Shown here in pieces: positions 49,240 through 51,924 of a stretch of 64,000 nucleotides of DNA; the stretch's first letter is position 1; each line of letters starts with the position of its first letter. The position numbers and the translations under genes were made by a program. The notes beneath the pieces were generated by a model that was given only the letters and a program-made list of their open reading frames with translations, did not search any database and had not been told where the DNA came from. This stretch comes from Arthrobacter sp. TMP15 (GTDB taxonomy: Bacteria; Actinomycetota; Actinomycetes; Actinomycetales; Micrococcaceae): positions 1,984,001-2,048,000 of the forward strand of contig NZ_CP154262.1 in NCBI RefSeq assembly GCF_039529835.1, written 5' to 3'.

Positions 49240-51924
49240 ATGTGCGGAATCGCTGGTTACTACGGTTATGGGGAAGATCTATCCCTGTTACAGCAGATGA
49301 ATGCGTGCATGGTGCACCGCGGCCCCGATGGTGAGGGTGTGTACACGCACGGCAACGTAGGACTGGCCCATCGCCGTCTTTCCATCATTGATGTGGCCCA
49401 CGGCCAGGAGCCAATGTACAGCGCGGACGGGCAGACAGTTCTGGTCTACAACGGCGAGGTGTACAACTACCTCGACCTGCGAGCCGAGCTAGAAGCCCTA
49501 GGACGAGTTTTCAGCACCCAATCGGACACCGAAGTTGTGTTGCAATCCTACGAGCAGTGGGGGGACGCGGCCTTCGATAAATTTAACGGAATGTTTGGTT
49601 TCGCCATTCATGACCTCAAAAACAACCGTCTGGTGCTAGCCCGCGATCACTTCGGCATCAAACCTCTGTACTACGCCACGGCAGGTACTGCCGAGGCTCC
49701 CACTCTGCTCTTTGGCTCAGAAATCAAGCCCTTGTTGGCCACCAACAAGCTTGAACGCAGTGTTGATGAGCGCATTTTGTTCCGCTACCTGCAGTTTAGA
49801 ATCCACGACGACGAGCCAGCCACGTTCTTTGCCGGCGTGCAGAAGCTGATGCCAGGGGAGAAACTGGTGGTCAACACCGTAGATTCCGAGGCTGGAGTAG
49901 CCGGGACCGTGCGCATCAGTTCTTACACTCGGTTCAAAGAAGAACTCGCGGAGCTCGCCAAGATTGAAACCCCGTACTCACAGGCTGTCATTGACGAGTA
50001 CCGGGACCGTTTCACCGAAGGTGTGCGCCTGCGTCTGCAGTCGGAAGTCCCCGTAGGCACCGCCTTGTCAGGGGGCCTGGACTCATCCGCCGTCGTGGCA
50101 ACTATCAACAAGCTCATGCAGGAAAATGCTGCCGCAACTGATTCTTTGGGCGCCAAGCAGCAAACATTTTCGGCTGTGTTCCCAAACTCCATCAATGATG
50201 AAGAGAAATACGCAGATGCCGTCCTCGCCCGGTGCGAGGGCAATGTCATCAGCCACAAGATTTTGCCGCAGCCAAGTGAGTTTGTTGAAGATCTGGAAGA
50301 TTTTGTGCGGACCATGGAGGAGCCTGTCATCTCCTCGGGTCCTTATGCCCAGTATCAGGTCATGCGCGAGGCCTCCAAGCATGTCTCAGTGCTGCTTGAT
50401 GGTCAGGGCGCCGATGAGATGATGGCCGGATACATCCCCTATTACTTCGCCTACTTGCGCCAGCTCAAAAAGAACGGCCAGAACGCGAAACTTGCCAAGG
50501 AGCTTGTGGCGAGTTCAGATATCCTGTTCCGGCTCGCTCGTTTCCGGATTCAAGGCAAGCTCACCTTCAAGAAAGAAGTGGGCATTTCTGCCCTGCTGGA
50601 TAAGAAGTTCACGGCAAAATACAAGGCCGAAAAGTTCGCCAACATCGCCGATAACTTGAAGCTGCGCCTCATCGATGACCTGTTCCACAAGTCATTGCCT
50701 GCTGTGCTGCGTTATGAAGACAAGAACACCATGCGATTTTCCTTGGAGGGCCGCGTGCCGTTCTTGGACAAAGAAGTGGTGAAGTTCCTGTTCAGCCTTG
50801 ACGATGAGTCAATCATCAAAGGCGGTTGGAACAAGCGGATCTTGCGCGATGCTACACGAGACTTGCTCCCGGAAATGATCAGCAACCGTCGCAACAAAAT
50901 TGGTTTCACCACTCCTGAAGCTGAATGGTTTTCACACATGAAAGAGAAGATCTATGAGATCTTCCTTTCCAGCTCCTTTGGTGCCCGCCCGTACTGGAAC
51001 CAGGACGCGGTTATTTACGCGTTCGAGGAACTCCTCAGCGGCAAGAGCTCAGGTTCCACCATGGTGTTCTGGCGTTTGATCAACACTGAGTTGTGGTTGC
51101 GCGAGTTCTTTGACGAGCCTGAAATCAAGGCCGGCATTGAGGGTAAGAGCGATTACATTCCCAACGCGGACAAGCAATTAAACATCAGCGTGCCAGGCGG
51201 TGCCGGAACTTTCCGACGTTACCCGCTGCGCACAGAGGTTTTCTACAAAGAAACCGACTTTGATCCCACGGCCATGACGTATGTGAAACGCTTTTTTGAT
51301 GGCCTGCCCACAGCTGGCGGGGACCATGGCACGGCCACTGCTGACACACCGTGGTACTTGTTTGTCTCTGAAAAGATTGTTGCCATGACCCAGGGCCGCT
51401 CCATTCCTGTCTGGGACATCAAGGTCAGCAATGCTGCACGCTTTTTCAGTAAGTTCGTAACGCGCAACCCGGGCGGCATTGGATTAGCCAGTCCATGGTC
51501 AATGCAGCTTGCCATCGATGAGGTGGGTTTGCCGCGCATTATGTACGCCTCCGCCCGCAGCGTCATCGGTAAAATCCAAGGAAAATCCGGGGTATTTTAC
51601 GAAGTGGTGGGCCACAATATCAACGCCATCGATGGTGCCGCCGGATACCAGGTTGGCACCTCAACCCACTCGGTAAAGTACGCCCCTATCGACCCCGACG
51701 GCGTAGCAGCCCGCTTGAGCGCCTTGGTGCGGGCAAGCGTTCCGGCAGAGTTCGCAGCAACCTTTGCGGGAACAGCCATCATGGACGCCAACGATCTGGG
51801 AGTTGTTGCCTTGGGCCATGACACCGCCCTGACCACGGCAGTCCTTGAGGACATCTTCCGTGACAACCCACAGGGACAGACCACCGAGACCACTCCGATG
51901 TCTCTGGTGTTCACCCAAAAGTAG
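49240..51924 (+). CDS. Asparagine synthetase fused to a CofE/F420-gamma-glutamyl-ligase-like domain
   Basis: The 894 residues run without interruption. Residues 1-215 are an N-terminal-nucleophile glutaminase (Cys2, [15 protein letters not shown]). Residues about 240-625 are an ATP-pyrophosphatase synthetase domain with SGGLDSS (277-283), DGQGADE (388-394) and EGRVPFLD, so AsnB is complete. After a short linker, residues about 655-894 resemble F420-0:gamma-glutamyl ligase (CofE) relatives: [19 protein letters not shown] (709-727), [21 protein letters not shown] (split 747-766), [11 protein letters not shown] and [11 protein letters not shown] lone AsnB is about 600-650 residues. The ATG follows GAGGAACTT; divergent from pdxT. 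It may amidate or ligate amino acids; the exact product is unknown. Confidence 0.85.

Follow-up and report, generated by a model that had tools for sequence, protein, structure and literature searches.

An asparagine synthetase-like protein fused to a CofE-like domain in Arthrobacter sp. TMP15, a candidate enzyme for the modification of peptidoglycan precursors

The fusion gene and its AsnB-like half

The window, that is, the whole stretch of 64,000 nucleotides of the soil bacterium Arthrobacter sp. TMP15 that was analysed, contains on its forward strand a frame without internal stop that encodes a protein of 894 amino acids, in which an AsnB-like half is followed by a CofE-like half (Table 1). 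Such a fusion had been described in the initial annotation of this DNA, and both the stop-free frame and the presence of the same fusion in relatives bear it out. That it represents an assembly join of two neighbouring genes is unlikely, and this possibility was rejected, since, of 148 host-family genomes, 37 (in 10 of 32 genera) contain the CofE-like domain, which lies in 35 of them within open frames of fusion size (889-1068 amino acids), the remaining two, both of genus g15, having frames of 564 and 588 amino acids. Fused proteins of 886-911 amino acids are also encoded at 26 titled loci, which come partly from the same genomes as the draw of 148. A structure model of the full-length fusion was uninformative (mean pLDDT 42.5).

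Table 1. Location of the fusion gene, its two halves and their motifs in the window
Feature	Positions	Strand	Basis
Complete fusion ORF, AsnB-like + CofE-like, 894 aa	49240..51924	+	ORF reading; same fusion in relatives
AsnB-like half, class II glutaminase + PP-loop synthetase, ~residues 1-629	49240..51126	+	TIGR01536, PF13537, PF00733
Cys2, glutaminase nucleophile	49243..49245	+	Sequence; invariant in 16 full-length rows of alignment A3
SGGLDSS (PP-loop) motif, residues 277-283	50068..50088	+	31/31 aligned rows, SGGIDSS in one
DGQGADE motif, residues 387-393	50398..50418	+	Alignment; Gln389 in 31/31 rows
CofE-like (PF01996 superfamily) ligase domain, ~residues 631-894	51130..51921	+	Profile, family alignment, predicted fold
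11-residue motif from SEKIV, residues 710-720	51367..51399	+	Aligned with N-terminal CofE motif
14-residue stretch, residues 746-759; P752 and M755 invariant in 23 family members	51475..51516	+	Family alignment
Asp798 (INAIDG), invariant 23/23	51631..51633	+	Family alignment
DANDLGV, residues 849-855; Asp849 invariant in 23 family members	51784..51804	+	Asp849 aligned with Asp of CofE VIITDTNGR (residue 150, 2g9i chain numbering)
DNPQGQ, residues 875-880; N876, P877 and G879 invariant in 23 family members	51862..51879	+	Family alignment

The AsnB-like half matches TIGR01536 with an E-value of 1.6e-125 and 420 bits (cut-off 267), as well as the Pfam families Asn_synthase (1.3e-64) and GATase_7 (9.6e-44), and these matches, together with Cys2 and the SGGLDSS and DGQGADE motifs, confirm that it is complete. 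The score over the TIGR01536 cut-off, Cys2 and the PP-loop are the features by which a glutamine-hydrolysing AsnB was recognised, and all three are present. A fourth AsnB feature, the Glu of the SGEGSDE motif that is catalytic in asparagine synthetases and is carried by E. coli AsnB and human ASNS, is replaced by Gln389. Gln stands at this position in all 31 aligned AsnB halves, fused or adjacent, which were chosen by an MCG-type start, so that Cys2 cannot be tested on these rows; the alignment is without L114 (decayed), L118 (no fusion), L076 (cut by a contig end) and L157, and decayed copies such as that of G646 are absent from it.

It is quite unlikely that the fusion is a housekeeping asparagine synthetase to which a CofE-like accessory or regulatory domain has been attached. 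The TIGR01536 equivalog score would fit this explanation, as would the fact that its own genome has no Asn_synthase match besides the fusion, but the same search gave no match in 10 of 12 host-family genomes tested that are without the CofE-like domain, so that the supply of asparagine does not seem to need the fusion, and the replacement of Glu by Gln in the AsnB halves also speaks against it. In the remaining two domain-free genomes there was one short Asn_synthase match (G002) and, in G017, a match split over two pieces of a 520-aa frame.

The CofE-like domain

The presence of an extra C-terminal domain with CofE-like motifs, as originally claimed, is borne out by the family profile and by the alignment to the motifs of CofE. 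The expected significant match to PF01996 (F420_ligase) is seen at the level of the family but not of the window protein alone: the domain of the latter reaches an E-value of 0.0031 and 17.5 bits, below the curated gathering score of 25, whereas PF01996 is matched by all 23 family members at E<=1, the best at 1.3e-14. A search of NCBIfam assigned no family to the C-terminal half, and phmmer with the single domain against PDB rendered only chance thioredoxin matches. When the family profile was used against PDB, three CofE sequences came out best, with whole-sequence E-values of 8e-5 to 1.2e-4 that become weaker per single stretch (about 0.05), and the next match was at 0.39. The comparison of a predicted structure with CofE, which had been suggested as a check, placed CofE chains as the top five Foldseek matches of the domain (E 2.6e-5 to 2.7e-4) and nothing else under E 0.001, but the TM values were low (0.35-0.38) and the mean pLDDT of the predicted fold was only 67. 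The family profile points to a remote CofE-like domain, as the predicted fold tentatively suggests too, and in this domain Asp798 is, by analogy, probably a metal ligand.

A role of this divergent CofE in F420 or folate polyglutamylation is extremely unlikely. In its favour stand the homology itself, the precedent of the chlamydial CT611 protein replacing FolC (in the available part of PMC1971073), and the finding of cofH over the cut-off in G606, G186 and G393, 3 of the 22 carriers tested, with a fourth, G385, narrowly missing it (369 against 374 bits); some carriers may make F420. Against it, the own genome of the fusion has no PF01996 match at E<=0.001 and, like G124, no cofH over the cut-off, and it does not qualify as an F420 producer, in agreement with the absence of F420 genes noticed at the outset. 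All 19 carriers tested for FolC have it over the cut-off, so the replacement of FolC by the fusion was rejected. On these PF01996, cofH and FolC searches, F420 and folate roles were rejected as unlikely in this host, where they are largely refuted, and the view of the protein as an amide-forming amidotransferase fused to a ligase module of the CofE superfamily, outside F420 metabolism, holds.

Distribution of the domain and of the fusion

Carriers of the domain in the host family include Arthrobacter, Psychromicrobium, Tersicoccus, Acaricomes and Specibacter. A single-sequence search found 18 positive genomes in a phylum sample of 296, the own genome included, and a profile search found 13 in a class sample of 296. 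In a profile search of the phylum 93 of 396 genomes were matched, many of these matches being weak and partial (E 1e-8 to 1e-3) and not taken as members. Stand-alone CofE-like copies of ~216-280 amino acids are common. The fusion or its remains occur also in four other family labels (f17, f70, f73 and f89), and AsnB is fused or adjacent at 7 of 37 loci outside the host family. The genome survey for separate adjacent asnB and CofE-like genes, another of the proposed checks, met such a pair in G385 (f27), where the two genes abut on one strand. Among broken or partial copies, L089-L092 and L124 were left out of the trees, and L089-L092 also out of alignment A1.

Some loci call for separate mention. 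The record titled Sporosarcina beigongshangi REN13 (L051) contains an Arthrobacter-like fusion domain that is 94% identical to that of the window, and the assembly is probably mislabelled or contaminated. Genome G550 (family f90) has four matches to the CofE-like family (L121, L122, L123 and L124), one of them a fragment, and only one adjoins MurJ. In families f24 and f10 (L081, L082 and L083) a putative PLP aminotransferase gene and a HAD-like gene, both named by eye, are found next to a divergent CofE-like gene.

Decay of the AsnB-like half

The synthetase half of G124 is reduced to its last part, and the CofE-like domain is intact. One of the catalases of this genome matches PDB 1gwe, which we take to be the catalase of Micrococcus luteus, over 502 residues with no visible mismatch, and G124 is very probably M. 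luteus. The CofE-like domains of G124 and of the other g15 species are 89% identical, with a dN/dS of 0.22 that indicates purifying selection; the corresponding values are 0.27 for the AsnB remnant and 0.58 for the N-terminal part. In G646 (f73) a long AsnB half is present without Cys2, SGGLDSS and DGQGADE, again next to an intact ligase domain, and in L171, the sister sequence of that of G646, the AsnB half is intact. Two separate decays of AsnB would be the simplest account of the tree (96/92), the second one built, whose rows were picked with a loose name filter that also kept some unrelated ones (f10, f111, f40 and f42). This decay of the AsnB half while the ligase half persists is a further argument against a housekeeping asparagine synthetase.

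Sequences L171 and L172 (MT835656.1 and MT838774.1) are filed as Bacteriophage sp. and resemble pieces of bacterial chromosomes; L171, with 73% GC and its AsnB-CofE fusion amid housekeeping-like genes, looks actinobacterial.

Cell-wall genes in the neighbourhood

Neighbour tables, built with our own gene caller, cover 37 loci outside the host family. At 9 of these the CofE-like gene has MurJ, the lipid II flippase, as its convergent neighbour, and at two more MurJ lies no further than about 2.1 kb away, six family labels being represented; the six MurJ proteins tested were all over the TIGR01695 cut-off. In G256 a gene for a MurT-GatD fusion lies 284 bp upstream of the CofE-like gene on the same strand. 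The asnB/CofE-like pair of G385 sits in a cluster with genes, read by eye, that we take to be ftsZ, sepF, yggT and a divIVA-like gene.

The product of the fusion had been suggested to be a small amidated peptide or a modified amino acid. The synteny, the exclusion of MurT described below, and the MurJ and MurT-GatD neighbours instead favour peptidoglycan precursors as substrate. The related explanation, in which the fusion would help to make a soluble amidated gamma-dipeptide, an osmolyte or some secondary metabolite of the NAGGN type, draws on the logic of an AsnB joined to a ligase and on a resemblance to TIGR03104 (N-acetylglutaminylglutamine amidotransferase), whose score of 326.7 bits is below the cut-off of 570, so that the fusion is not assigned to that family. 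It is very unlikely in view of the cell-wall neighbourhoods and of the exchange with MurT, and by eye no transporter or biosynthetic cluster adjoins the fusion in the window.

Exclusion of MurT and exchange with murT-gatD

MurT/GatD carries out the amidation of D-Glu in lipid II. In a first test of the host family, MurT_C was matched in none of 12 carriers of the CofE-like domain and in 6 of 12 non-carriers. Among the 148 host-family genomes, MurT_C is present in 58 and the CofE-like domain in 37, with no overlap (Fisher p 4e-10), and 53 genomes have neither. The exclusion is weak when counted by genera (9 carrier-only, 10 MurT-only, 1 with both kinds and 12 with neither; Fisher p 0.11), and the genus with both kinds, g26, has them in different genomes (5 carriers and 2 with MurT). 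The own genome of the fusion has no MurT_C match, nor has G143, which also carries the fusion; G014, the third g15 genome, is without the domain and without MurT_C. Outside the host family the domain and MurT_C are found together in 3 of 33 carriers tested, namely G186 (with a fusion, E 9.7e-26), G256, and G374, whose CofE-like gene is a fragment. A profile search of the 894-aa protein found neither a Mur ligase nor a MurT_C domain; the fusion is therefore not a member of MurT/GatD but an apparent functional replacement of it.

The exchange can be seen in one chromosomal slot of family f4, which belongs to the same order as the host and which we take, from its gene content, for Microbacteriaceae. 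All 13 genomes of this family that were compared have the order PAC2-like - rpoD - X - gyrB-like, where X is a stand-alone CofE-like gene in five and murT-gatD in eight, and alr lies in between in 5 of the 13. The five genomes with the CofE-like gene have no MurT_C match, and the other eight have a MurT_C match and no CofE-like gene. Both the CofE-like gene and murT-gatD can start inside the final codons of rpoD. The assignments of MurT, GatD, RpoD and Alr were checked on examples (NCBIfam, Pfam), PAC2 and gyrB being named by eye; the MurT_C matches are weak (E 2e-4 to 4e-9, one of the eight below the cut-off), and the NCBIfam scores of the MurT/GatD examples are far below the equivalog cut-offs. 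On genomic context, the exchange of the CofE-like gene with MurT/GatD is well supported. Since relatives of its CofE-like half share a slot with a cell-wall enzyme pair or take its place there, the fusion probably decorates cell-wall building blocks, and the swap of the ligase alone with murT-gatD is at odds with a housekeeping asparagine synthetase.

The f4 loci with murT-gatD immediately 3' of rpoD (L162:5131-7199, L163 and L165-L170) encode eight GatD proteins, all of which are without the usual Cys. The GatD of G256 is also without it, the ordinary GatD used for comparison being that of G114 only. The slot therefore seems to fit already amino-acid ligation without glutamine-dependent amidation. 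Type-B mureins are cross-linked via the alpha-carboxyl of D-Glu, and it is possible that the Cys-less MurT-GatD of f4 is an amino-acid ligase for type-B cross-bridges (D-Orn/Dab). Species of Microbacterium carry Lys, D-Orn or Dab (available part of PMC10757982).

The mutual exclusion of the domain and MurT in the host family, and the presence of a glutaminase in the same protein, could also mean that the CofE-like half makes D-isoglutamine, which is the MurT/GatD reaction, with the AsnB half merely supplying ammonia. This is unlikely, since the PP-loop ATP site, which would not be needed for the supply of ammonia, is intact in the 31 aligned fused or adjacent proteins with an MCG-type start, and the stand-alone and AsnB-dead forms keep the ligase with no amidotransferase partner in the gene or the slot.

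Proposed function

The reading that we prefer, with a probability of roughly 0.6, is that the fusion is an enzyme that modifies peptidoglycan precursors in place of MurT/GatD, adding glycine or D-alanine and then amidating it. From the slot exchange we infer that it would modify the alpha-carboxyl of D-Glu of lipid II, and we also infer the substrate, the added amino acid, the stage, and the acceptor of the AsnB half as given below. The earlier idea of ligation and amidation acting together survives in this proposal, the likely acceptor now being the D-Glu of the stem peptide.

CofE forms an acyl phosphate on its carboxylate substrate that is then attacked by an amino acid, and it has been likened to MurD by the authors of that work (available part of PMC10861534). 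Because CofE works via an acyl phosphate, an analogous activation step is proposed for the CofE-like half, which would use a nucleoside triphosphate and a metal to activate the alpha-carboxyl of the stem-peptide D-Glu as an acyl phosphate, probably at the lipid II stage; the amino acid that it would then join to D-Glu is most likely glycine or D-alanine. Glutamine would be hydrolysed by the AsnB half, which would also activate the free carboxyl of the added residue with ATP and amidate it, giving glycinamide or alaninamide. In forms with a dead or missing AsnB half, such as that of Micrococcus luteus and the stand-alone copies, the added residue would stay unamidated or be used in cross-linking.

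Murein chemistry agrees with this proposal: that of M. luteus, whose AsnB half is dead, carries plain glycine on D-Glu, that of Arthrobacter atrocyaneus glycine amide, and that of Renibacterium salmoninarum D-alanine amide; the incorporation of glycine in M. lysodeikticus was reportedly described by Katz in 1967. We know of no gene for the glycine, glycinamide or D-alaninamide branches, nor for the first residue of type-B cross-bridges. Our search of the open-access literature found no gene for these branches or for that residue, no primary source for the glycine amide and alanine amide mureins or for the carrier genera, and no paper that describes this fusion or assigns a CofE-family protein to peptidoglycan. 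In Intrasporangium calvum glycine is placed on the alpha-carboxyl of D-Glu (available part of PMC3035309). The masking of this carboxyl affects cross-linking, and pneumococcal synthases need amidated lipid II (available part of PMC4632607).

In a more general form, which we regard as evenly balanced, the short CofE-like proteins of Actinomycetota would form a new class of lipid II ligase, attaching glycine or D-alanine at the D-Glu alpha-carboxyl. These ligases would have traded places with MurT/GatD in two or more families, in one case within a single slot, and would supply the enzyme that is missing for the glycine branch in M. luteus and in B1-type mureins; fusion to AsnB would lead to glycinamide or alaninamide, and decay of AsnB to plain glycine. 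If this is true, D-Glu decoration, for which several bacteria seemingly miss an enzyme, gains a candidate gene, the CofE fold is placed in cell-wall synthesis, and the murein type could be predicted from sequence. The proposal for the fusion can also be put to the test on a gene of a model organism, M. luteus.

Comparison with known systems

We know of no amidotransferase of the LtsA/AsnB1 type that is fused to a ligase. These enzymes, which amidate meso-Dap, provide a precedent for members of the AsnB family acting on peptidoglycan carboxylates (available part of PMC4632607), and they differ from the fusion in their substrate, the one proposed here being D-Glu. The chlamydial COG1478 protein CT611, which complements folC, is similarly a case of the CofE family recruited outside F420, but it serves folate, and not the cell wall, and lies in a folate gene cluster (available part of PMC1971073).

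With CofE and the N-terminal domain of FbiB (F420-0:gamma-glutamyl ligase, PF01996; 2phn, 2g9i and 7uld), the C-terminal half shares the superfamily, by profile and tentatively by predicted fold, and also the N-terminal motif, the DPDG stretch and the Asp of ITDTNGR. It differs from them in that the domain has about 230 amino acids, scores below the PF01996 cut-off and is fused to AsnB in a host in which no F420 pathway was found; the domain also seems to be shorter than CofE after the DTNGR-like motif. With MurT/GatD, the lipid II isoglutaminyl synthase, the system has in common the slot shared across the 13 f4 genomes, the exclusion in the host family and the logic of a ligase acting with a glutamine amidotransferase, whereas the proteins belong to unrelated families, a CofE-like domain standing against a Mur ligase and a class II AsnB glutaminase against GatD.
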